Shown: positions 10,585-46,517 of the stretch, piece after piece
Layout of the letters: each line of letters begins with the position of its first letter
Numbering within the stretch: position 1 is the stretch's first letter
Origin: a virus
DNA: 46,863 bases
Reading direction: 5' to 3' (one strand)
Virus record (IMG/VR): IMGVR_UViG_3300045964_000079
Location: 1 to 46,863 of that record
Notes under the pieces: model-generated
Database searches by the model: none
Seen by the model: only the letters and a program-made list of their open reading frames with translations
What the model was told of the DNA's origin: nothing
Position numbers and translations under genes: made by a program

Positions 10585-10728
10585 ATGCAGGACCGACAGG
10601 ATACGTGCGCGTGCGAGGTGTGCCGCCGACCCGGCGACAAGTGGTTCATCGGACGGTGGCTCTGCTGGGAGTGCTGGGAGTGCGAGTTTCACCGGCTGAT
10701 CGAGGAGTGCTATGCGGGACCACGGTAA
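10585..10728 (+). CDS. 47-aa cysteine-rich zinc-ribbon peptide
   Basis: A short gene that reads MQDRQDTCACEVCRRPG... and ends CYAGPR. Cysteines occur as CxCxxC near residues 8-13 and as CWECWEC near residues 28-34, a likely zinc knuckle. It overlaps the exonuclease start by 17 bp. Many phage recombination operons carry such peptides; the function is unknown. Confidence 0.5.
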   Translation: MQDRQDTCACEVCRRPGDKWFIGRWLCWECWECEFHRLIEECYAGPR

Positions 10729-11659
10729 AGCCCAGCCCCGGATCGGCGGGAGCGAGATCAGCGCCCTGTTCGGGCTCAACGACTACCTGGACGAGCGGGC
10801 GCTCTGGATGCGGAAGAAGGATCCGATCCCGTGGGACGAGCCCAACGACCGGATGCGCCTCGGTAAGCACCTGGAGCGCGGCATTGCGGAATACTACGCC
10901 GACCTGGAGGGCGTCGAGATCGACTGGTGCGACATCACCAGCCAGCACCCGGTCTACGAGTTCATGTGCTACACCCCGGACGCCCTGGTGAGAGGGAAGC
11001 GGCGGGGGATGGACTGCAAGCTCGTCGGCTGGGATCAGTCTTACCGCTGGCGCCACGGCCCCACCGATCACTCCCAGATGCAGGCGTGGTGGTACATGGC
11101 CGCGCTCGATTACGACGAGTGGGACGTGGTGCCGCTGATCATGGGCGAGGACCGGCCTCGGGTCTACCGCGTGAAGCGGGACGCCGCCGTCGAGCGGATC
11201 ATGCTCCGGAAAGCGGAGAGCTGGTGGCGGCGCTACCTCGTGGGCGACGAGCGCCCGCCCATCACCGGGAGCGATCTCAGCTCCGCGTGGCTGAAGCACA
11301 CCTACCCCAAGCACCGGGCCAATACGCTCGATATCGCCGATGACGAGGAAGCCGCGCTCCTCACCGAGTACGGCCAGATCCGGCGCTGCTACCGCCGCTA
11401 CGAGGCCGACAAGAAGCTGTGGGAGAACCGGATCAAGGAAGCGCTGGGGGAGCGCGAGGGGCTCCGGTGGCCGGGTGGGAAGCTCACCTGGAAGAAGACC
11501 CGCGACTCCCACGTAGTCGAGTGGGAGCCGCTCGCGGAGGCGCTCCTCGCACGCCATCCCGAGGGCGACCGGCTCCGCGAGGACTTCACCGTGACCAAGC
11601 CGGGGCACCGCCGTATTCACTTCAAACCTGTCGATGGAGAGGAGGAAGAACTTGGCTGA
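10712..11659 (+). CDS. YqaJ-family viral recombinase (exonuclease)
   Basis: 315 residues. The N-terminus IGGSEISALFGLNDY is the usual opening of YqaJ/lambda-Exo-like nucleases. RLGKHLERGIAEYYA follows near residue 50. The PD-(D/E)xK core is visible as YTPDALV, then MDCKLVGWDQS (about residues 89-110), followed by DHSQMQAWWYMA, the conserved glutamine helix. It should resect double-stranded ends 5' to 3' and load the annealing protein encoded two genes downstream. The classical ExK motif reads D-C-K here. Confidence 0.85.
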   Translation: MRDHGKAQPRIGGSEISALFGLNDYLDERALWMRKKDPIPWDEPNDRMRLGKHLERGIAEYYADLEGVEIDWCDITSQHPVYEFMCYTPDALVRGKRRGMDCKLVGWDQSYRWRHGPTDHSQMQAWWYMAALDYDEWDVVPLIMGEDRPRVYRVKRDAAVERIMLRKAESWWRRYLVGDERPPITGSDLSSAWLKHTYPKHRANTLDIADDEEAALLTEYGQIRRCYRRYEADKKLWENRIKEALGEREGLRWPGGKLTWKKTRDSHVVEWEPLAEALLARHPEGDRLREDFTVTKPGHRRIHFKPVDGEEEELG

Positions 11660-15014: not shown

Positions 15015-15320
15015 ATGGAACCCCCTCGGAAGCTGCCGACGAAAGCCCTCACGCTCCAGCGCGTGACGGGGGAGGATACGCCAGAAGGGCGTGCGCGGAT
15101 TGCTTGGGGAATCGATTTCATCCTGGGCGAGATCCGCGCCGCGCGGAAGCTCCGGGAGGGCGCCGATGAGCACTCAGCCGATATGCGCTCTGATGGCGCG
15201 GGTATCGCTGCCCTCCCAAGCGGAGAAGGGGTACTCGCTCGAAACACAGATCGAGCTTCTGACTCCGGTTATCGAGAAAAACGGCTACGCCGTCTCCGAG
15301 GATTGGGTTCTAAGGGATGA
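15015..15320 (+). CDS. Small gene overlapping the recombinase (possible directionality factor)
   Basis: The ATG at 15015 has a good GAGGAG ten bases upstream. The first 50 residues look like a real helical protein (DFILGEIRAARKLREGADE). The last 50 lie antiphase within the recombinase gene (155-bp overlap) and look less protein-like, so either the overlap is genuine or the frame is accidental. The preceding 110 bp (14905-15014) are AT-rich with TATCATATATAAACC and may hold the promoter. Small proteins beside serine integrases sometimes control excision; that role is only inferred here. Confidence 0.4.
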   Translation: MEPPRKLPTKALTLQRVTGEDTPEGRARIAWGIDFILGEIRAARKLREGADEHSADMRSDGAGIAALPSGEGVLARNTDRASDSGYREKRLRRLRGLGSKG

Positions 15321-16842
15321 CGGGTACCAGGGGAATGACTGGAATCGCCCCGCAATCAACCGGGGGCTGGACGCGATCCGCGAGGGGAAAGTAAAAGCTC
15401 TCGCGTTCATCAACGTGGATCGCTTCGCCCGCGATGTAGAGGGAGGGCTCGCGCTACTCCGTAAGGTCCGCGAGTCCGGGGGAATCATCATCTTTGGGGA
15501 TCTCGGCCCGGTGAGCGATGATGCAAACTTCCGGCTCATGCTCCACTTGAGGCTGATGATCGCGGAGTATGAGAAGTCGCGCATCAAAACCAGATCGCGC
15601 GAAGTGGTGATGGCGAAAGTCCGGAACCTCAAACAGATCCACGGCGGGAAGGCTCCCTACGGCTACACCTACATCCCCAAGAGCGACACTCCGATTCCGC
15701 ACCTCAAGATCAACCCGGACACCGCGCCCATCGTGCGCTTGATTTTCGCTTGGTACGATGTGGGATGCAGTCTCCGCGAGATCGTCAAGCGGCTGTCGCG
15801 CGATGGGATCCAGCCTCCGGGTCGGCCGCGGCAAACCAAGAAAAATAGCTATTGGGCCGTCACGGTGATCACCCGGATGATCCGCAACGAGGCCTACATC
15901 GGGGATTGGCACTACAACAAGTGCTACTTCACGGTGCCGGAAAAAATCGTGGATCCCTCCAAAACGCGCCACCGCCAAGCGACCAGCCTGAAGGTGAAGG
16001 ACCGCTCGGAGTGGATCCGGATTCCGATTGATCCAATCGTGGATCGCGCCGTCTTCGCCCGCTGTAACGAGCGGCTCTCCAAAAACAAGCGTACGATTGG
16101 GGGGCGCCCCTCGGACCGCTATCTCCTCAAGGGGCTGGTGTGGTGCGCGAAGTGTGGGAAGCGGTTTTGCGGAGCGCGGAAGCGGCGCTCATCGGGCGAG
16201 TACCAGACCTACTACAACTGCACCAATCTCTCAAACCGGCGTCCGGCGAACGATTCCCCGGTTTGCACGGCGCCGAGGGCGAACGGAGTTCCCCTGGAGA
16301 ATTTGGTCTGGGATGAAACCACGATGGCTCTCGGGGAAGAGGAGACGCTGACCCAACTCCTCCGGGAGCACGAGCGAGCCACGGGTAAATCCAAGCCATC
16401 GGATCGCGCCAAGCTCGCCGCCAGGATCGAGGAGCTGCTGGAGAACGAGCTGCAATACCGCACCGATGCTTCGCGGGTTCGCCGCTCCGATCCTCGCGCT
16501 CGCCAGATCCGGGAGCACTATGCCCAGCTCATCGCGGAGTCGGCCCGTCAGCGGGACGCGCTCTCCCTGGAGCTGGCGAAGATCGCTCCCGCCACCAACC
16601 GCGCGAATATCCACGATCTGGTGGTGGAATTTCGAGAGGGGTTAAAAGACCTCTCCCGCGCGGCAAAGCAAAAACTCCTCTCGCGCTGGGTATCGAGGGT
16701 GGAGTATTATGACGGCGAAGTGAGCATTCATCTCGCCATCCCGTTGTTGGGACAAGGGGCGGCGGGGGTCCAAAACTGTAACGGTGGTCAACCCCACTGT
16801 AACAGTTTTATACCCCTAATCCTACACCGGAGGGTCGCATGA
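15166..16842 (+). CDS. Large serine recombinase (phage integrase)
   Basis: 558 residues. I chose the ATG at 15166 because GGGAGGG precedes it and the resolvase domain starts at once. Catalytic Ser14 lies in ARVSLPSQAEKGYSLETQ; DRFARD (85-90) and the EKSRIKTR helix (136-143) complete the resolvase domain. The recombinase domain follows (about 160-300, with GKAPYGYTY). The zinc ribbon uses C327, C330, C352 and C367, and a coiled coil spans about 420-520. The length matches large serine integrases. It should catalyse attP x attB integration and, with a directionality factor, excision. Confidence 0.93.
   Translation: MSTQPICALMARVSLPSQAEKGYSLETQIELLTPVIEKNGYAVSEDWVLRDDGYQGNDWNRPAINRGLDAIREGKVKALAFINVDRFARDVEGGLALLRKVRESGGIIIFGDLGPVSDDANFRLMLHLRLMIAEYEKSRIKTRSREVVMAKVRNLKQIHGGKAPYGYTYIPKSDTPIPHLKINPDTAPIVRLIFAWYDVGCSLREIVKRLSRDGIQPPGRPRQTKKNSYWAVTVITRMIRNEAYIGDWHYNKCYFTVPEKIVDPSKTRHRQATSLKVKDRSEWIRIPIDPIVDRAVFARCNERLSKNKRTIGGRPSDRYLLKGLVWCAKCGKRFCGARKRRSSGEYQTYYNCTNLSNRRPANDSPVCTAPRANGVPLENLVWDETTMALGEEETLTQLLREHERATGKSKPSDRAKLAARIEELLENELQYRTDASRVRRSDPRARQIREHYAQLIAESARQRDALSLELAKIAPATNRANIHDLVVEFREGLKDLSRAAKQKLLSRWVSRVEYYDGEVSIHLAIPLLGQGAAGVQNCNGGQPHCNSFIPLILHRRVA
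16772..16809. other. Candidate attP / recombinase binding site
   Basis: At the 3' end of the recombinase gene AAAACTGT (16772-16779) and ACAGTTTT (16802-16809) form an inverted repeat, and ACTGTAAC recurs at 16775 and 16796, 21 bp apart. Attachment sites of serine integrases often flank the gene and are about 40-50 bp imperfect palindromes. This is suggestive only; the AT-rich 14905-15014 interval is the other candidate. Confidence 0.35.
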
Positions 16843-22187: not shown

Positions 22188-22435
22188 CAATCCACGATCA
22201 CTTTGATGGCTCCGCTCACTGCGTGGAGTGTGGGGGGCCATGTCGGCTCGATCCGGAATCAGCAGCGGTGACAGGTGTCATCCGTCACCTGTATGAAGCG
22301 CTTGCAAGTACTGGAACAGGTCCCAACATGATGGTGAGGAGCGCGATGGAAAAGCTCGGCCTGGATGCGATGGGGTTCTGGATGCGAGCGCGGGGAGCGA
22401 CCGAGAGGGAATGGCGTGGCCGCTATCCTCGGTAA
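22184..22435 (+). CDS. Small cysteine-containing protein
   Basis: 83 residues, GTG overlapping the upstream stop. HCVECGGPC near residue 12 suggests a half zinc site. Its last 20 bp overlap the PP-loop gene. Confidence 0.45.
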   Translation: MTIHDHFDGSAHCVECGGPCRLDPESAAVTGVIRHLYEALASTGTGPNMMVRSAMEKLGLDAMGFWMRARGATEREWRGRYPR

Positions 22436-23243
22436 AAAGCAATCCCTCTCTTCCCAAGCCATCTGGCTGGAAGCGAGACGCCGCGCGGCTGAACTGGACA
22501 TCCGCCCCCGGATCGATGAGACGATCCAACGGATTCGCGAGACGGTGGGCCACCGGGATCTCGCCTTCGGCTGGAGCGGAGGGAAGGACTCCATCGTCCT
22601 CGAAAAGATCCTCGCGCTGGCTGGCTACCGGGCCTGTGTCCTGGTGATCACCCAGCTCGAATACCGCGCGTTTCTCCAGTGGGCGACCGACCACATGCCC
22701 GAGAGGCTTACCGTGATCCGGACGCATCACGATCTGGATTGGCTCGCCAGGAACGAGGAGATGCTGTTTCCAAAAGACGCCGCTATCGCGGCGCGATGGT
22801 TTCATCAGGTCCAGCACTGGGGCCAGGAGGTGTACCTCAAGCGGGAGCGGTTCGATCTCCTGGCGGTCGGCCGACGCCGCAAGGACGGCAACTACTGCGG
22901 CCGCGACGGGATCTACACCAACGCCCGAGGGATCACGCGCTACGCGCCGCTGGCCGACTGGACCCACGAGGAAGTCTTCGCTGCGATAGAGTACTTTCAA
23001 GCGGCGCTTCCACCCAACTACAGTTGGCCGCGCGGGTATCAGGTCGGGACGGGGCCGTGGGCAGCTCGACAGTTTGCGTCGACGCAAGATCAGGCGTGGC
23101 GCGAGGTATGGGAGATCGAGCCGGGAATCGTGGAGGCTGCTGCCACCCGGCTGGAGAGCGCGAGGGAGTGGATGCGCGATGGACGGCTCCGACTGGGTGA
23201 TCTTCACGGTGGCGATCATCGTCGTGCTCTATCTGCTCCGTAG
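22416..23243 (+). CDS. PAPS-reductase-like PP-loop ATPase
   Basis: 275 residues from GTG 22416 (GAGGGA upstream); in-frame ATG 22365 lacks a ribosome-binding site. The PP-loop is FGWSGGKDSIV (SGGKDS at 54-59). The C-terminal signature RYAPLADWTHEEVFAAIEYF is that of the PAPS reductase / ATP pyrophosphatase superfamily, which activates a substrate by adenylation using ATP. No active-site ECG motif for true PAPS reduction is visible, so another adenylating reaction is likely. It is separated by three tiny genes from a glutaminase, which suggests an ammonia-using ligase pair. Confidence 0.8.
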   Translation: MAAILGKKQSLSSQAIWLEARRRAAELDIRPRIDETIQRIRETVGHRDLAFGWSGGKDSIVLEKILALAGYRACVLVITQLEYRAFLQWATDHMPERLTVIRTHHDLDWLARNEEMLFPKDAAIAARWFHQVQHWGQEVYLKRERFDLLAVGRRRKDGNYCGRDGIYTNARGITRYAPLADWTHEEVFAAIEYFQAALPPNYSWPRGYQVGTGPWAARQFASTQDQAWREVWEIEPGIVEAAATRLESAREWMRDGRLRLGDLHGGDHRRALSAP

Positions 23244-24700: not shown

Positions 24701-25045
24701 GTGAGTAGAGCCTGGAGCCCCACATTCGACATGAGCACGATCCCGGAGGGGATCTTCAACAGCGAGCTGGCGCGGCGGAATTCGGCCAAGCGCAAGACCA
24801 AATCGGGCGGGGTGGTCTGGGGTCAGCACAACCCGGACACGCTCCGCTGTAGGTGCGCGGACTGCTCCGTGAAGCGCGAGGAGCGCCGCGCGGAGGAAGC
24901 GGAGATCCCCAAGCGTCCGCAGGGTCGGCCGCCGAAGGAGCCGGTGGTGACGGTGAAGCGGCCCCAGGGTCGGCCCCGCCTCCACCCGGAGATCGACCCC
25001 GTGGCTCCCAAGCGGCCCAGGGGGAGGCCGCGGAAGGTTGCGTAG
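24701..25045 (+). CDS. AT-hook DNA-binding protein
   Basis: 114 residues, GTG 24701 after AAGGGGG. The C-terminal 45 residues hold three AT-hooks (KRPQGRPPKE, KRPQGRPRLH, KRPRGRPRK), which bind the minor groove of AT-rich DNA. A CRCADCS motif near residue 50 may bind zinc. It is likely a phage nucleoid or regulatory protein. It is the first product of promoter a and is followed by a histone-H1-like gene. Confidence 0.75.
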   Translation: MSRAWSPTFDMSTIPEGIFNSELARRNSAKRKTKSGGVVWGQHNPDTLRCRCADCSVKREERRAEEAEIPKRPQGRPPKEPVVTVKRPQGRPRLHPEIDPVAPKRPRGRPRKVA

Positions 25046-38738: not shown

Positions 38739-40043
38739 ATGGCATCCCCTGAATTGCGCGTGATCGCGGAATCCTGCCCGGTCGATGGAACGCCGCACAA
38801 CTTTCTGCCGGTGCCCGAGAAACCGGGCTGGGTCTACTGCACCAAATGCCTCACATCGATGGAGCTGACTTTCAACCCGGAGCCCCCGGATCCTCCCGAC
38901 CCCCCGGACCCGGAGCCGCCCGATCCTCGTCCCGTGAGGGTCTATCAAGCGAACGGAACCGACGACACGGCGGCGCTCCAGAGCTGGCTCAACCAGCAGC
39001 CCAACGACTCCATCTACGACATTCAGGGCACGGCTGCGATCAACAGCCAGGGCGTGCGAGTGCTGGGAAAAGTGCGCGTCAAAATCACCAGCAGCAACGG
39101 GGGCGGGTTCAAAGCGATCAGCAACGGCCCCTATACCTCGCCGTTCAGCGCAATGGTCTACGCGGAGGGATTCAACGAAAGCGAGTTCAACGGCCTGAAG
39201 TTCAATTCCAACAGCAAGCAGGCGATGGGCATATTCCTCCTCAAATCGACCCGTGGGAAGGTGTTGAAGTGCGAGTCCTGGGGAGTCGCTCAGAATCCCA
39301 ACGGGGCGCCGTGGGCGGGGATCTACGGCGAGCAGTGTACGGAGACGGAGATCGGCTACTGCCACGTCCACGATACCGCTCCGACCGTGAGGGGCATCTG
39401 GCTGGGAGTGGGCGACCGCCGCGATAGCAAGCCGCACATCCACCACTGCAAAGTAGAACGGACTGGTCACACCGGCATCATCACCGAAGCCAACGGGCCC
39501 TACGTCCACGACAACGAGGTCTACGACATCCCGCAGCACGGGACCGGGTACAAGTTCATCCCCCGAGGCCCCGCTGACGCCGCGATGTGGGAGAACAACC
39601 TCGTGAGCGGGACGGGCAATGCCGGGTTCATGATGGAAGGCTCCACGACCGATCCACCCATCGAAATCAGAAACCACACGTTCAAAAACTGCGGCGCCGA
39701 CAATACCACCTTCGGCGGCTTCTACCTCGTCAACGGCCAGGGGAACACCAACCTCAACATCCACGATTGCTCGTTTGAGAATTGTCGACGCCTCGGCGCG
39801 ATGCAGTACGTGACGAACAGCCAGTTCCGGAACATGACGATCAAGAGCAGCAGCGATCTCTGGAGCCTGGAGCTGAACAACGCCAACCTCATGTTCCAAA
39901 ACGCCGGTAAAGTCGAGATGGGCCAGGGGAACAGCGATATCAACGTCCAGGGCGCTCCCGCGCCGCAGCAGATGCAGGGTCCGATTGTGGACTACGACAA
40001 AGCGGTCAAGATCGCACTGCTGATCCGGCTGATCGGTCTGTGA
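38739..40043 (+). CDS. Right-handed beta-helix tailspike-like protein
   Basis: 434 residues, ATG 38739. A short N-terminal domain with CTKC is followed by a proline/aspartate linker (PEPPDPPDPPDPEPPDPRP, about 53-72). A series of short strand-turn repeats comes next (VHDTAPTVRGIWLGVG, HIHHCKVERTGHTGIITE, VHDNEVYDI, IRNHTFKNCG), typical of parallel beta-helix pectate-lyase-fold spikes. It could bind or cleave surface polysaccharide. It lies far from the other fibre genes, near the packaging module. Confidence 0.65.
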   Translation: MASPELRVIAESCPVDGTPHNFLPVPEKPGWVYCTKCLTSMELTFNPEPPDPPDPPDPEPPDPRPVRVYQANGTDDTAALQSWLNQQPNDSIYDIQGTAAINSQGVRVLGKVRVKITSSNGGGFKAISNGPYTSPFSAMVYAEGFNESEFNGLKFNSNSKQAMGIFLLKSTRGKVLKCESWGVAQNPNGAPWAGIYGEQCTETEIGYCHVHDTAPTVRGIWLGVGDRRDSKPHIHHCKVERTGHTGIITEANGPYVHDNEVYDIPQHGTGYKFIPRGPADAAMWENNLVSGTGNAGFMMEGSTTDPPIEIRNHTFKNCGADNTTFGGFYLVNGQGNTNLNIHDCSFENCRRLGAMQYVTNSQFRNMTIKSSSDLWSLELNNANLMFQNAGKVEMGQGNSDINVQGAPAPQQMQGPIVDYDKAVKIALLIRLIGL

Positions 40044-40327
40044 CGTGCCGGTGCGGCCACGGCTACCAGGAGCACACCGGGCGAGGGTGCGCGGTGAGCT
40101 GGTGCCTCTGCCGGGGATTCAGGAGGTGGGAAGTGCCGGACAACGATCTCAAGGATGTCGCCCCGCTCAAGAAGGGATACTCGAAAGAGACGATCTCGGA
40201 CAATATCCGGATCGGCCGACGTTTGGGTCGCCCCGAAAAACAGGCCGTCGCCGTAGCCTTCAACGTGGCCAGGAAAGCCGCCAAGAAAGCGGGAAAGCGT
40301 CCGGCTCACCTACGGCCCAAGCGGTAA
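40040..40327 (+). CDS. DUF6496-like basic protein with CxC N-terminus
   Basis: 95 residues, GTGA overlap. The C-terminal 55 residues (APLKKGYSKETISDNIR, then a run of A, K and R) match the small basic phage/plasmid family DUF6496. The N-terminus has CRCGHGYQEHTGRGCAVSWC, an extra zinc-like module. Function unknown. Confidence 0.65.
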   Translation: MTCRCGHGYQEHTGRGCAVSWCLCRGFRRWEVPDNDLKDVAPLKKGYSKETISDNIRIGRRLGRPEKQAVAVAFNVARKAAKKAGKRPAHLRPKR

Positions 40328-40398
40328 AGGGACCGCCCGAAACGCCCAACCGGAGTCAAGCGCGGTCCCGTAGGTCCTGGGCGATCCCCAGGAGCATT

Positions 40399-40566
40399 AT
40401 GCCTCTCAGGAAGGGTTACAGCAAGAAGACGATTTCCAAGAACATCCGCGCCGAGCGTCGCCGTGGCCGACCCGCTAAGCAAGCCATCGCGATAGCGTTC
40501 AGCGTGGCCAGGAGAGCCGCAAAAAAAGCAGGGCGCCGCCCGCGTCACCTCCGCAAGAAGCGGTAG
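40399..40566 (+). CDS. DUF6496-like basic protein (paralogue)
   Basis: 55 residues, ATG after GGAG. It reads MPLRKGYSKKTISKNIRAER and continues with the same A/K/R pattern as the C-terminus of the preceding gene, so the pair is a tandem duplication. One copy has gained or lost the cysteine-rich part. Confidence 0.65.
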   Translation: MPLRKGYSKKTISKNIRAERRRGRPAKQAIAIAFSVARRAAKKAGRRPRHLRKKR

Positions 40567-40604: not shown

Positions 40605-40643
40605 GGCCCGCTGGTTTTCACGTTCCAGCGGGCCATTTTATTT
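40605..40643 (+). terminator. Rho-independent terminator
   Basis: GGCCCGCTGG (40605-40614) pairs with CCAGCGGGCC (40625-40634), followed by ATTTTATTT. It separates the DUF6496 genes from the ParB gene. Confidence 0.85.
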
Positions 40644-40772: not shown

Positions 40773-41438
40773 ATGGCCCCGACAATCGATACATCGCAAT
40801 GGCCCGCCCTCCAGGTTGAGCTGGTCCCGATAGCCGACCTGATCCCCTACATCCGGAATCCCCGCCAACATTCGCCCGAGCAAATCGCGCAGATCGCCAG
40901 TTCCATGATGGAATTCGGGTGGACGATCCCGGTCCTCCGGGACGAGGACGGGGTGCTGATCGCCGGACACGGCCGCATCCTGGCAGCCCGCAAGCTGGAA
41001 TGGGACGTAGCGCCGGTGACCACCGCGAGGGGCTGGAGCGAGTCCAAGAAACGAGCCTACCGGATTGCGGACAACAAGCTCACCATCAACTCGACCTGGG
41101 ACATCGACCTCCTGAACACGGAGATCGAGGCGCTCGCCGAGGAGGAATTCCCGCTCGACCTCACCGGCTTCAACGAGGCCGATCTCGCGCGGCTGGCCGA
41201 CGATCTGATGGCCAACCAGTTCACCGAGGCGCAGCAGCCCGCTCAGGATCCGCCCCAGGACGGCAACGGCGCTGCGCCGCGCTCCGCTCCGGATCAGGTG
41301 TCGCTGGTGATTCCGATGACCGTGGCGCAGCGCGAGGGGATTTTCGAGGCCATCCAGAAAGCCAAGCGGGACTACGGACTCGATCAGAGCGCGGAGGCTT
41401 TATGGCAGATTTGCAGAACGTATCTGGAGCAGGAGTAG
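40773..41438 (+). CDS. ParB/Srx-fold nuclease-like protein
   Basis: 221 residues. The ParB N-terminal domain is clear: NPRQHSPEQIAQIASSM (29-45), then FGWTIPVL and VLIAGHGRILAARK (61-74). Phage members are often found beside methyltransferases or packaging genes. The C-terminal 90 residues are proline/glutamine-rich and then helical. Roles as a DNA nuclease or as a CTP-binding regulator are both possible. Confidence 0.8.
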   Translation: MAPTIDTSQWPALQVELVPIADLIPYIRNPRQHSPEQIAQIASSMMEFGWTIPVLRDEDGVLIAGHGRILAARKLEWDVAPVTTARGWSESKKRAYRIADNKLTINSTWDIDLLNTEIEALAEEEFPLDLTGFNEADLARLADDLMANQFTEAQQPAQDPPQDGNGAAPRSAPDQVSLVIPMTVAQREGIFEAIQKAKRDYGLDQSAEALWQICRTYLEQE

Positions 41439-42217
41439 CGTTCAGCTCCTACGATCCAGCAGCAACCTGGAACGAGCTGGCCCAGCTCGCGGGCGGCGTT
41501 CTCCGCTCCCTCCAGCTTCCTTCGATGAGCCCGCTGTGGCTCCCCGCCGACCAATCGCACTTCGGGTATCTCAGCCGCGGCTCGCTCCACGTGGTTTGCC
41601 GGGGCGTCAACTTCACCATCCAACCGGGCTTCCACTTCTCGCTCCCCGGCGCCGCCGAGCTGATGGCGATGGACGCGACGGACGGGATCGTCGTGTCGCG
41701 CCCCGGCTACGAGAGCTACCTGACGATGGGGCTCCTGGAGGACCAGGGCCGTCTCCGCTACATCGACGGCTGCACAGACTCGCTCCTGATCCCCCCGGTC
41801 AAGCTGGGCGATCCGTGCCTCAACCTCCTGTACTTCCCACCGGACACGGACCAGACCATGCACACGCACCCGAGCGACCGGATCGGGATGATTCTTTCGG
41901 GGCAGGGCGTGTGCGTCACCCAGGACGAGCGCGGCGAGCTGGAAACGCCGCTGGTGCCGGGGATGATCTTCTGCATCCACACCGGGGGAAAGCACAAGTT
42001 CCGGACGCTCGATTCGCCCATGCGCGTCCTCGCCTACCATCCGGACACCGATTTCGGGCCGACCGACGAGGACCACCCGATGATCAACCGGACGATGGTG
42101 AACGGCGTGAGCGCGGCCAAGCTGACGGAAATCCACACCGGCGCCAAAGTCGCGATCCGCGCCGTCCCCGAAGAAGTCCTCGTCAAGCGCGGCCCTGGCC
42201 GACCGAGGAAGCAGTGA
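41402..42217 (+). CDS. Cupin-domain protein with C-terminal AT-hook
   Basis: 271 residues, ATG 41402. The cupin core HTHPSDRIGMILSGQGVCVT (154-173), with FCIHTGGKHKF near 190, supplies histidines for metal binding. It ends VKRGPGRPRKQ, a canonical AT-hook core (PGRP). A metal-binding beta-barrel tethered to DNA could be an oxygenase or a sensor. The gene overlaps the ParB and IbrA-like genes, so the cassette is co-translated. The enzyme activity is not known. Confidence 0.7.
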   Translation: MADLQNVSGAGVAFSSYDPAATWNELAQLAGGVLRSLQLPSMSPLWLPADQSHFGYLSRGSLHVVCRGVNFTIQPGFHFSLPGAAELMAMDATDGIVVSRPGYESYLTMGLLEDQGRLRYIDGCTDSLLIPPVKLGDPCLNLLYFPPDTDQTMHTHPSDRIGMILSGQGVCVTQDERGELETPLVPGMIFCIHTGGKHKFRTLDSPMRVLAYHPDTDFGPTDEDHPMINRTMVNGVSAAKLTEIHTGAKVAIRAVPEEVLVKRGPGRPRKQ

Positions 42218-43404
42218 GGCGGCTGGAGAAAAACTGGCTGGAGCGGAACGTCTATCAGGCGGCGCTCGACAGGTTCGAGCTGCTCTACAAGCGGTTCGAT
42301 ACGGTGGTGGTGTCCTTTTCCGGAGGGAAGGACTCGACCGTCTGCCTTCACCTGGCGCTCGAAGTCGCAAAAGCGATGAACAAGCTCCCGGTGAAGGCCT
42401 ACTTCTGGGACGAGGAAGCCATCCACCCGGAAACCGTGGAGTACGTGGAGCGGGTCCGGCTCCGGGATGACGTGGACCTGAAATGGCTCTGCATTCCGGT
42501 GAAGCACCGCAACGCTTGCTCGCGGCGCTCGCCGTACTGGTATTGCTGGGATCCCACCAAAAAGCATCTGTGGTGCCGGGAGATGCCGCTCCACGGGATC
42601 GAGGCGCGACAGGTGAGCTGGTTCAAGCCGGGGATGACGATCCCGGACGCCTCGCCGCTGGTGTATGGCCGGGAGTACGGGACGGTGGCCGATATCCGGG
42701 GGATCCGCGCCGACGAATCGCTGCGGCGGCTGATGTCGGTAATGAAGCGCCTCGATGACAACTGGCTGGGCTCCGGACGCGACGGCCACAACTACCCGGC
42801 GTCGCCCATCTACGATTGGACCCTCCCGGACGTGTGGTCCGCGCCGATGCGCTTCGGCTGGGACTACAACCGCACCTACGATGTCTTTTACAAGGCGGGG
42901 ATGCCCATGCAGGATCAGCGGGTGTGCCCGCCCTTCGGCGAGGAGCCGCTCGAAACGCTGTGGCTGTACGCGATCTGCTGGCCAGAGCTGTGGCACAAGA
43001 TGATCCTCAGAGTCCCCGGCGCGGCCACCGCTGCGCGTTATGGGACCACGCAGCTCTACGGCTACGGGGCCGAGAAACTCCCCGCTGGCGTCTCCGACTG
43101 GCGCGACTGGAGCTATCGGCTCCTCGCCCTTTTCCCCGAACCCTACCGTTCGATGATCGCGAAAAGCGTGGTGAACATGATCGAGATGCACAAGAGCAAG
43201 ACGCATCGCCCGATCCCGGACTCCGACGCCGATCCGCTCTCGGGCCTCTCCTGGCGGTTTATCGCCAACGTGGTGAAGCGCGGCGACCTCAAGAACCGGC
43301 GTCGCGGAAAGCTCACCGATTACGGACTCCAGGCGCAGCGGAAGCTGGGCCTCACCTTGGAACAGGTAATGGCGATGGAGACGGACGATGCCACGCGCTA
43401 CTAA
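42214..43404 (+). CDS. IbrA-like PAPS-reductase-family protein
   Basis: 396 residues, GTGA overlap. The PP-loop is VVSFSGGKDSTVCLHL (SGGKDS 36-41). YFWDEEAIHPETVEYV and the downstream REYGTVADIRGIRADES...PIYDWTLPDVWSAP give the PAPS reductase layout; the C-terminal extension resembles DUF3440 of IbrA. E. coli prophage IbrA/IbrB form such a pair and regulate eib genes (from the literature). Here it is followed by an IbrB-like ParB gene, which supports the naming. Confidence 0.8.
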   Translation: MRRLEKNWLERNVYQAALDRFELLYKRFDTVVVSFSGGKDSTVCLHLALEVAKAMNKLPVKAYFWDEEAIHPETVEYVERVRLRDDVDLKWLCIPVKHRNACSRRSPYWYCWDPTKKHLWCREMPLHGIEARQVSWFKPGMTIPDASPLVYGREYGTVADIRGIRADESLRRLMSVMKRLDDNWLGSGRDGHNYPASPIYDWTLPDVWSAPMRFGWDYNRTYDVFYKAGMPMQDQRVCPPFGEEPLETLWLYAICWPELWHKMILRVPGAATAARYGTTQLYGYGAEKLPAGVSDWRDWSYRLLALFPEPYRSMIAKSVVNMIEMHKSKTHRPIPDSDADPLSGLSWRFIANVVKRGDLKNRRRGKLTDYGLQAQRKLGLTLEQVMAMETDDATRY

Positions 43405-44044
43405 GAAACCGCAGAAGCCGCCCAAGGGCAAGACGCTCGCGGAGGTGTTCGCGGCCGAGGAGTCCGACGAGAGCTACGAGGCATCCAAAGCGCTCCTCGA
43501 TGCTCGCAAGCCCAACGGCCACGCTCCCCGCCACTCCTTCGACACCGAGCCGATCTCGCGCGTCGAGTGGGTGGACCGCTCCACGCTTCACGCCAACCAT
43601 TACAACCCCAACGCCGTCGCGCCTCCCGAGCGGGAGCTGATCATCCTATCCATCCTGGAGGATGGCTGGACGCAGCCCATCGTGACGCTCCCGGACGGAG
43701 AGATTGTCGACGGGTATCACCGCTGGATGTTTAGCTGCGATCCGCGCCTGATGGAGCGCTACCACGGGTTCGTGCCGGTCACCCGGATCGTGGTCGATCC
43801 CGTCCACCAGCAGATGTCGACCATCCGCCACAACCGGGCTAGGGGAACGCACGCGATCCTCAAGATGGCCGATATCGTCACCGGGATGCTCAAGGCGGGC
43901 GTGACCTCCAAGCAGATCCAAACCGGCCTGGGGATGGATGACGAGGAAATCATCCGCCTCTCTACCGCTCTCGGGATGCCCGAGCTGGCCGCGAAACCCA
44001 ACTTCACCAAGGCGTGGAAGCCGGGTGAGAAGGAAGTCGAGTAG
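43388..44044 (+). CDS. IbrB-like ParB-domain protein
   Basis: 218 residues, overlapping the IbrA-like gene by 17 bp. NPNAVAPPERELIILSILED (73-92), GEIVDGYHRW (104-113) and the helical STIRHNRARGTHAILKMADI mark the ParB/IbrB class. It probably works with the PP-loop partner. A lysine/proline-rich N-terminus could contact DNA. Distinct from the ParB at 40773, with which it shares the fold only. Confidence 0.75.
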   Translation: MPRATKKPQKPPKGKTLAEVFAAEESDESYEASKALLDARKPNGHAPRHSFDTEPISRVEWVDRSTLHANHYNPNAVAPPERELIILSILEDGWTQPIVTLPDGEIVDGYHRWMFSCDPRLMERYHGFVPVTRIVVDPVHQQMSTIRHNRARGTHAILKMADIVTGMLKAGVTSKQIQTGLGMDDEEIIRLSTALGMPELAAKPNFTKAWKPGEKEVE

Positions 44045-44604
44045 TGGCGAAGCTGGTCCCTATCGGAGTGCTCGCGCGGATCTGCGAGGTGGATCCCCGC
44101 GCGATCCGCAAAGCGGTGGAGAAGGGCCAGTTGGACCGCCGACCGGATGGGATGTTCGATCTCGAAACCGCTCGGCAGCAGTGGGAGGAGAACGTCGAAC
44201 ACACCCGCGGCCGCGACACCGTGAATCCCCGCGTGGTCGAGATGAGAAGAGAGGAAGTCGGCCCCGACGCTCCCGCCGAGATCCCGGAGCGGGCGACCAG
44301 GGGCACGGAATACGCCAAGGCGCGCGCGGCGGTCCAGATTTACGAGGCGCGTCTGAAAAAGCTCCGGTTCGAGGAGCGGGCTGGGCGGCTGGCGCCGACG
44401 TGCGACATCCAGCACGCGCGGTTTCAGGAGATGCGGATCATCCGGGACGCCTGCCTCAACCTCCCCGGACGGGTGAGCGCCGCGCTCGCAGCCGAGACGG
44501 ATGAGCACAAAGTCTTTCAGCTCCTCGAAAACGAGCTGCTCAAGGTGTTCAACGACTACTCCGATGGAAAATACAATCCCCGACCGGAGGATGTATCCGC
44601 ATGA
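44044..44604 (+). CDS. Nu1-like small terminase subunit
   Basis: 186 residues, GTG 44044 overlapping the upstream stop. An N-terminal helix-turn-helix (ARICEVDPRAIRKAVEKGQL, then FDLETARQQW) and a helical C-terminal region (LKKLRFEERAGRLAPTCDI) match lambda Nu1, which recognises the packaging site. It directly precedes the large subunit. Confidence 0.8.
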   Translation: MAKLVPIGVLARICEVDPRAIRKAVEKGQLDRRPDGMFDLETARQQWEENVEHTRGRDTVNPRVVEMRREEVGPDAPAEIPERATRGTEYAKARAAVQIYEARLKKLRFEERAGRLAPTCDIQHARFQEMRIIRDACLNLPGRVSAALAAETDEHKVFQLLENELLKVFNDYSDGKYNPRPEDVSA

Positions 44605-46517
44605 CGCCTTCCATGCAGGGGATCGCGGACACCTACGAGATCGTCCGGAAAGCGATGCGGGCGGGCGCTCGCCCCGATCCCAAGCTCCTGGTGAGCGACT
44701 GGGCCGACCAGTACCGCATGCTCACCACGCGATCCTCGCCCGAGCCTGGGTTATGGCGAACCTCGCGTACCCCCTTCTTGAAGGACATCATGGATTCGCT
44801 CTCGCCCTCCTCGCATTGGGAGCGGGTGATTTTCATGAAGGGCTCGCAAATTGGGGCGACGGAGTGTGGAAACAACTGGATCGGCTTTTCGATCCACCTC
44901 GCGCCTGGGCCCATGCTCGTGGTTCAGCCGACCACCGACATGGTGAAGCGCAACTCGAAACAGAGGATCGGCCCGCTGATCGATGAGAGCCCGGTGCTGC
45001 GGGGATTGGTGAAGGAAGCCCGCTCGCGCTACTCGGGGAACACCATCCTCGCCAAAGAGTTCCTGGGCGGAATTCTCGTGATGACCGGGGCCAACAGCGC
45101 CAAGGGCCTCCGCTCGATGGCCGCGAGGTATTTATTCTTGGACGAGGTAGATGGGTACAAGCTCGATGTCGATAAGGAAGGCGATCCCTGCGAGCTGGCC
45201 ATCGTCCGGACCACCAATTTTCGCCGTAGAAAAATTTTTATATGTTCGACCCCCACGCTCGTAGGCCGTAGCCGCATCTCGCAATACTTTGAAACCACCG
45301 ACCAGTGCTACTACTTCCTCCCGTGCCCGCGCTGCGGACGGAAGATCGTCCTGCTCCCCGAGCAGCTCATCTGGAGCGAGCGCCGCGCCAACGAGGCCGC
45401 GTACCGCTGCCAGGAGTGCGAGGGCGAAATCTACGATCACGAGAAGAACGAAATGTTGCCGGCTGGGGAGTGGCGTCCGACCGCGACCGGCGACGGCTTC
45501 AGCAAGGGCTACCACCTGTCCTCCTACTACTCCCCGGTGGGCTGGCTGAGCTGGACCCAGATCCTCCGGAAGAAAGCCAAGGCCGAAGCCGACAAGAAAA
45601 TGCAGTCGTTCTGGAACACGGTCCTCGGCCTCCCGTACCAGGATGAGGGCGAAGTGCCCGACGTGGACCGGCTGTACGAGCGCCGCGAGGGGTACCTGAT
45701 CGGAGAGGTGCCCGAGGGCGGGCTCATCCTTACCGCTGGCGCGGACGTCCAGATGAACCGCATCGAGGTGGAGATCGTAGCGTGGGGCCGCAACCGGGAG
45801 AGCTGGAGCGTGGACTACCGCATCCTGGAGGGGAACACCAACCAGCCCGAGGTGTGGGACAAGCTCGCCGCGCTGATGGACGAGGACATCCCGACCGTAG
45901 CGGGCGGGGTGCTCCGCATCTCCAAGCTCGCGGTCGACGCCGGATTCCAGACGATGGCGGTCTACAACTTCGTGCGCCGGATGCTCTCGCAGCGGGTGAT
46001 CGCGGTCAAGGGCGAAGCGCACGTTCAATCTTTGGTGGGCGTGCCCTCGCTCATCGAGGTGGGCCCAGGCGGGCGACAAATCAAGGGGGGAGTCCGCCTG
46101 TGGCCCGTCAATAGCGGGATCGCCAAGGAGGAGCTGTACCGCCGTCTCAAGCTGAGCGTCCCGGATCTCAGGGCGGGGGAGAACTGGCCCGAGGGGTTCT
46201 GCCATTTTCCCGCCTACTCCAAGGAGTATTTCGAGCAGCTCTGCGCGGAGTGCCTCGTCTCGCGGGTGGTGATGGGGCAGCTCAAGACCCATTGGGAAAA
46301 GCTCCGCGACCGGAACGAAGCGCTCGACTGCCGGGTGTACGCCCGCGCCGCCGCCGTCTCGATGCGGATGGATGCGTGGATGGATACCCGGTGGGACGAG
46401 CTGGAGCAACAGGTAGCCGCGGCGAGTAAAGCTCGCAGCGCATCGCGGCCCGCGTGGGTGGACCGGCCCGCTCCGACGTTCCGGCCCATGCAGAGCGGGG
46501 ATTCGTTTCTGGACTGA
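44601..46517 (+). CDS. GpA-like large terminase subunit
   Basis: 638 residues, ATGA overlap. The ATPase has a Walker A-like GSQIGATE (81-88) and Walker B FLDEVD (179-184). A zinc site follows (CPRCGRK near 242-248, CQECEGE near 270-276), typical of GpA proteins. TAGADVQMNRIEVEIVAWG marks the nuclease domain. It should pump and cut DNA during head filling. Confidence 0.93.
   Translation: MTPSMQGIADTYEIVRKAMRAGARPDPKLLVSDWADQYRMLTTRSSPEPGLWRTSRTPFLKDIMDSLSPSSHWERVIFMKGSQIGATECGNNWIGFSIHLAPGPMLVVQPTTDMVKRNSKQRIGPLIDESPVLRGLVKEARSRYSGNTILAKEFLGGILVMTGANSAKGLRSMAARYLFLDEVDGYKLDVDKEGDPCELAIVRTTNFRRRKIFICSTPTLVGRSRISQYFETTDQCYYFLPCPRCGRKIVLLPEQLIWSERRANEAAYRCQECEGEIYDHEKNEMLPAGEWRPTATGDGFSKGYHLSSYYSPVGWLSWTQILRKKAKAEADKKMQSFWNTVLGLPYQDEGEVPDVDRLYERREGYLIGEVPEGGLILTAGADVQMNRIEVEIVAWGRNRESWSVDYRILEGNTNQPEVWDKLAALMDEDIPTVAGGVLRISKLAVDAGFQTMAVYNFVRRMLSQRVIAVKGEAHVQSLVGVPSLIEVGPGGRQIKGGVRLWPVNSGIAKEELYRRLKLSVPDLRAGENWPEGFCHFPAYSKEYFEQLCAECLVSRVVMGQLKTHWEKLRDRNEALDCRVYARAAAVSMRMDAWMDTRWDELEQQVAAASKARSASRPAWVDRPAPTFRPMQSGDSFLD

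Follow-up and report, generated by a model that had tools for sequence, protein, structure and literature searches.

What does a chain of four overlapping genes lying directly 5' of the terminase genes do for a phage? The question is raised by positions 40773 to 44044 of the IMG/VR virus record IMGVR_UViG_3300045964_000079, which was analysed over its full 46,863 bp (hereafter, the window). The genes encode a ParB-family protein (ParB1), a bicupin, the PP-loop protein IbrA, and a second ParB-family protein, IbrB. IbrA and IbrB are common in phages. The original prediction, made from the window's sequence, was that the four genes could modify phage DNA or mark it for packaging. We found that a ParB1-IbrA-IbrB core is conserved next to the packaging genes of many uncultivated viruses and, as the main new observation, that the cupin slot is interchangeable among cassette copies. 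The cassette and its surroundings are as follows.

40773-41438, + strand: ParB1, 221 amino acids (aa), a stand-alone ParB N-domain protein with a C-terminal module.
41402-42217, + strand: bicupin, 271 aa from the ATG at 41402, a putative metalloenzyme with conserved H154, H156, and H198.
42176-42214, + strand: AT-hook-like C-terminal tail of the bicupin, VLVKRGPGRPRKQ, found only in the window phage and identical contigs.
42214-43404, + strand: IbrA, 396 aa with a GTG start, carrying a PP-loop (SGGKDST) and DUF3440.
43388-44044, + strand: IbrB, 218 aa, with a ParB fold, a helix-turn-helix, and the motifs DG[FY]HR and TIRHNRARG.
44044-44604, + strand: terS, terminase small subunit (phrog_57), overlapping IbrB by 1 nt.
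44601-46517, + strand: terL, terminase large subunit of the GpA type, by profile match to GpA.
40605-40634, + strand: terminator-like hairpin 5' of the cassette, a 10-bp GC-rich stem followed by the U-rich AUUUUAUUU (-24.8 kcal/mol, z = -6.2).

The genes from ParB1 to terL overlap successively by 37, 4, 17, 1, and 4 nt, indicating that the cassette is chained translationally to the packaging genes; the position, the families, and the overlapping of the four cassette genes agree with the original description. The codon composition of the four cassette genes is the same as that of the adjoining phage genes. Related loci were collected by a viral-contig scan with the cupin (19 loci) and by profile scans, from which the best 80 of 203 cupin loci and the best 80 of at least 367 IbrA loci were taken, and dereplication of the IMG/VR loci at the DNA level yielded 97 groups. 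Cupin and IbrA occur together in 80 of these, accompanied by IbrB in 78/80 and by ParB1 in 77/80. All four genes are present in 76/80, so chance co-location was rejected, and the search for the same gene order suggested with the original prediction did find a conserved linkage. Intergenic gaps within the cassette have a median of about 0 nt, and ibrA and ibrB are adjacent on the same strand, with the 17-nt overlap seen in the window.

The tie to packaging genes also holds: a large terminase gene lies 3' of the cassette in 68/75 cupin loci, mostly within 1.5 kb, the 75 being loci in which a terminase was detected or the contig reaches far enough 3' to show one (five further contigs end too early). 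The other 7/75 have 4 kb or more of DNA 3' of the cassette and gave no match to any of the four terminase profiles. The terminases form four clusters (two of phrog_2, one each of phrog_15 and phrog_9), indicating that the cassette is kept with different packaging enzymes. Pairwise identities among the four proteins correlate at only 0.19 to 0.60, and strict co-inheritance as a single block is thus not shown. Three bicupin queries found no bicupin in 50,697 deposited phage records.

Six IbrA loci without the bicupin carry, between ParB1 and IbrA, a gene for a sodium:solute symporter (SSF, PF00474) or a TctC-type binding protein (PF03401). A separate scan with the symporter as query returned 161 relatives, and most of the best 80 adjoin ParB1, IbrA, and IbrB, often with a terminase 3'. 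Of 231 loci that contain ibrA or ibrB, 145 have the bicupin, 73 SSF, 5 TctC, and 8 none of the three, and no locus holds two together; these cupin and SSF sets were fetched by different queries and include related contigs. After dereplication, 134 IbrA loci comprise 80 with the bicupin, 43 with SSF, 3 with TctC, and 8 others, again with zero co-occurrence of bicupin, SSF, and TctC. A small single-domain cupin is present in six of the eight others, and a glutamine amidotransferase (GATase)-like gene with a second PP-loop enzyme in three, two of which also have the small cupin. In the subset retrieved by the IbrA query (59 groups: cupin 45, SSF 4, TctC 2, none 8), the zero overlap has P = 0.002 under independence, relatedness being ignored. 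The sole SSF match among deposited phages, from a human gut phage, has the gene order SSF-ParB1-IbrA-IbrB. Replacement of the cupin by transporters points to small-molecule supply rather than to action on DNA.

The bicupin matches the Cupin_2 profile (E 5e-9), and H154, H156, and H198 occur in 112/112 viral and 58/58 cellular alignment rows, with R160 replacing the motif Glu; the aligned residues, an HxH plus a third His at barrel positions, are those expected of a metal-dependent cupin. One residue signature is common to 111 viral and 57 cellular bicupins. The structure model (predicted local distance difference test score 88) resembles DUF861/ureidoglycine aminohydrolase, oxalate decarboxylase, and quercetin dioxygenase folds at only 10 to 18% identity, so that no substrate can be named. 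In cells, 58 GTDB loci encode the family (57 distinct sequences); most lack IbrAB, and in three (L035, L053, and L055) ibrA adjoins the bicupin gene. The genes beside the cellular copies encode small-molecule enzymes, among them dehydrogenases, a PP-loop protein, and, in Crocinitomix, an aminotransferase together with a TauD-type oxygenase. In Lewinella, Saprospiraceae, and Pirellulaceae, the bicupin lies 3' of a conserved PP-loop gene, several of the pairs overlapping (L041 6811-7884, L065 6691-7797, and relatives); the Lewinella PP-loop protein had no Pfam, NCBIfam, or PDB match and is asparagine-synthetase-like by motif only. In Maricaulis, the NeuB and cytidylyltransferase genes near the bicupin lie for the most part on the other strand, and this context was left aside. 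A match on a Paraburkholderia plasmid carries no annotation.

The AT-hook-like end of the cupin had been taken to imply a DNA-tethered activity. The tail is indeed present, but it occurs in 1/93 distinct cupin C termini, restricted to the window phage and near-identical contigs, and in other cassettes the cupin itself is swapped for transporters. A DNA-anchored cupin is therefore not a general mechanism, and the idea of an AT-hook cupin as DNA-bound enzyme was rejected. Elsewhere in the window, a 104-aa protein (24731-25045, + strand) bears three similar AT-hook-like GRP repeats in its C-terminal half, suggesting that this phage may be prone to tails of this kind.

IbrA belongs to phrog_2302 (E 4e-83) and scores 54.2 bits against PAPS_reduct (cut-off 22.5) and 57.5 bits against DUF3440 (cut-off 25). 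Its predicted PP-loop is well founded, since S36, G38, K39, D40, S41, and T42 of SGGKDST are invariant in 55/55 aligned IbrAs; a GxRxxES motif is also found. The structure model resembles FAD synthase, APS reductase, and ATP sulfurylase folds, a set that would be consistent with adenylyl chemistry. IbrA scores 20 bits against the CysH (PAPS/APS reductase) equivalog, whose cut-off is 154, and 17 bits against the DndC equivalog of Dnd phosphorothioation, whose cut-off is 290; the ECGxH cysteine and CxxC are each found in 0/55. A second PP-loop protein of the window (22416-23243, + strand; PAPS-reductase-like, phrog_424) lies distant from the cassette, and its relatives adjoin IbrA and a GATase-like gene in three other loci (L152, L153, and L160).

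ParB1 matches phrog_620 (E 3e-49) and the ParB-methyltransferase family phrog_498 (E 2e-45), and its profile aligns with the ParB N-domain of Noc/Spo0J structures (E down to 2e-8). IbrB belongs to phrog_2159 (E 1e-60), and its profile aligns with the same structures across the N-domain and helix-turn-helix (E down to 3e-5). At the profile level, both proteins are thus members of the ParB/Srx superfamily; as single sequences, the window ParB proteins score under the cut-off for Pfam ParB_N, and a Pfam scan of IbrB gave no match. No ParA-type family was found among the window proteins scanned (Pfam; two proteins of >1000 aa excluded), as a ParABS partition system would have. The nearest phage relatives of ParB1 are the N-terminal domains of ParB-methyltransferases (~50% identity), whose genes lie immediately or shortly 5' of the terminase in ctOK67, pOW20-A, and Javan105, indicating that the cassette sits in a DNA-modification slot. 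In Fusobacterium phage phiFN37 (L232 9766-10990), a second ParB gene lies directly 5' of a queuine tRNA-ribosyltransferase gene, near IbrA/IbrB; the two are possibly a separate deazaguanine DNA-modification pair.

We consider the chances about even that the ParB1-IbrA-IbrB core and its swappable metabolite-supply gene constitute a conserved late-operon module for DNA hypermodification before packaging. The partner would make or import a small molecule: the bicupin or small cupin would convert it, the SSF symporter or TctC-type binding protein would capture it, and the glutamine amidotransferase with the second PP-loop enzyme would supply ammonia. IbrA, using ATP, might then adenylate the small molecule, or the DNA acceptor, via its PP-loop, and ParB1 and IbrB would deliver the group so activated to the DNA of the phage, which would be hypermodified by the time the terminase is about to package it. 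The purpose would most likely be protection against host nucleases. The analysis shows the genes, their conservation, their position, and the exchange of partners; that the reaction is an adenylation, that DNA accepts the group, and that the benefit is protection are what we infer. The predicted modification of phage DNA by the four genes survives in this form as the best fit, though not by way of a DNA-tethered cupin. The further proposal, that phage DNA is hypermodified by a system of a new class, in which the core attaches an imported or cupin-made metabolite and the attached group changes as phages exchange supply genes, is possible, and we advance it tentatively.

Several points weigh against hypermodification. 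The scan of the window proteins detected no DNA methyltransferase, thymidylate synthase, TGT, or CmoA, which leaves the module with no visible "handle" enzyme. Elsewhere, IbrAB pairs lack a metabolite gene, and their annotation is that of co-activators in prophage gene expression. The place 5' of the terminase could also reflect an insertion hot spot, and the exclusivity counts, coming from separate cupin and SSF queries with related contigs, are not independent samples.

The co-activator annotation of Escherichia coli IbrAB leads to a different account, in which IbrA/IbrB with ParB1 co-activate their own late operon, the gene for the cupin or transporter being either cargo or a means of sensing an effector. 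The helix-turn-helix of IbrB and the location of the cassette at the head of the packaging operon, 3' of the terminator-like hairpin, agree with it; however, the conserved catalytic-type residues in IbrA and the bicupin imply enzymes, some IbrAB pairs lie distant from late genes and adjoin what annotation or profile identifies as a helicase gene, and a symporter would be an odd component of an activator, so that we regard this account as unlikely. Much the same holds for auxiliary metabolism, in which the pre-terminase slot would hold cargo serving the metabolism of host or phage (nutrient uptake, nucleotide or sulfur metabolism), the ParB genes being neighbours rather than partners. PHROGs places IbrA among auxiliary metabolic genes, SSF and TctC are uptake families, and cellular cupins have metabolic gene contexts, but the ParB1-IbrA-IbrB core is kept with every partner type and with several terminase families, unlike loose cargo, and two proteins with a DNA-binding fold are hard to fit with metabolism; we rate it as improbable.

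Sulfur chemistry on DNA, either phosphorothioate-like or thiolated, with IbrA in the role of DndC/SspD and the ParB proteins in that of DndB, would account for the membership of IbrA in the PAPS-reductase PP-loop superfamily, for the weak similarity, at the profile level, that it shows to BrxP, DndC, and SspD, and for its conserved C93, C102, and C238; Dnd systems, too, include ParB-family proteins. It is nevertheless rather improbable, given the DndC score and the missing CxxC and ECGxH described above, the fact that no DndA/D/E-like partner was seen in the window, and the cupin, symporter, and TctC partners, for which sulfur transfer offers no evident role. ParB-family domains are nucleoside triphosphate (NTP)-dependent clamps or nickases, and the tight position of the cassette 5' of terS-terL would also suit packaging control, with ParB1/IbrB and NTP forming a nickase, clamp, or terminase regulator and a metabolite-linked IbrA modifying terminase or portal. 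Several terminase families accompany the cassette, making a specific protein target unlikely, and IbrAB is also found far from packaging genes; we therefore hold packaging control to be very improbable.

Whereas hypermodification with a swappable supply gene is the reading that we prefer, the exchange of partners is itself a clue: the substrate of IbrA/IbrB should be a small molecule, made by a cupin in one phage and imported by a sodium symporter in another. The cassette may bring to light a large reservoir of DNA modifications in uncultivated phages, with relevance to phage-host defence. Further features of the window are a large serine recombinase (integrase; 15193-16842, + strand), which suggests a temperate phage, a RecE-like exonuclease (10712-11659), and a small phrog_2423-type open reading frame (40040-40566, + strand), the C-terminal part of which is duplicated (61% identical) directly 3', up to 40566.

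As to novelty, IbrA/IbrB pairs are known in prophages, as originally stated, and the order ParB-IbrA-ParB next to the terminase is already annotated in Arthrobacter isolates; the part of the combination that looks undescribed is the swappable cupin or transporter. We found no paper linking a cupin or symporter to IbrAB, in a literature coverage that was incomplete, so an earlier description is possible. There is a real chance that the cassette is a new modification system. The annotated prophage pairs (PMC4541368) of E. coli PhiR5_2, Streptococcus CHPC877, and Flavobacterium FCL-2 likewise have adjacent IbrA PP-loop and IbrB ParB genes; they differ in having no annotated ParB1, cupin, or symporter nearby and, in the cases examined, in not lying 5' of a terminase.

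Dnd/Ssp and type 4 BREX systems share with the cassette a PAPS-reductase-superfamily PP-loop enzyme acting on DNA (DndC, SspD, BrxP) and, in DndB, a ParB-family protein, whereas IbrA scores very weakly against them and lacks CxxC, and no further Dnd/Ssp parts were seen. A precedent is provided by phage CmoX/CmoY (PMC12783734), in which 5-carboxymethylcytosine in DNA is the substrate of an amide ligase that depends on ATP and resembles asparagine synthetase, and in which ParBc proteins are often encoded nearby. The CmoA-CmoX-CmoY clusters thus resemble the cassette in combining an ATP-dependent ligase and ParBc proteins to place a metabolite on DNA; CmoY is an asparagine-synthetase homologue, whereas IbrA belongs to the PAPS-reductase superfamily, and neither CmoA nor a C5-methyltransferase Pfam family was found among the window proteins scanned. 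The ParB-adenine methyltransferase fusions of ctOK67, pOW20-A, and Javan105 share the homologous N-domain and the slot by the terminase, whereas ParB1 has no methyltransferase domain, and IbrA, IbrB, and the cupin are separate genes. The Arthrobacter Laroyevirus Wheelbite (ParB-PAPS reductase-ParB-methyltransferase-terS-terL) has the core order ParB-IbrA-ParB directly 5' of the packaging genes, as here. Its IbrA is only 28% identical, and in place of the cupin or symporter it has a 192-aa methyltransferase (phrog_11826; L083 5627-6205), encoded after the second ParB and before terS, a site that in some other phages holds a small cupin.

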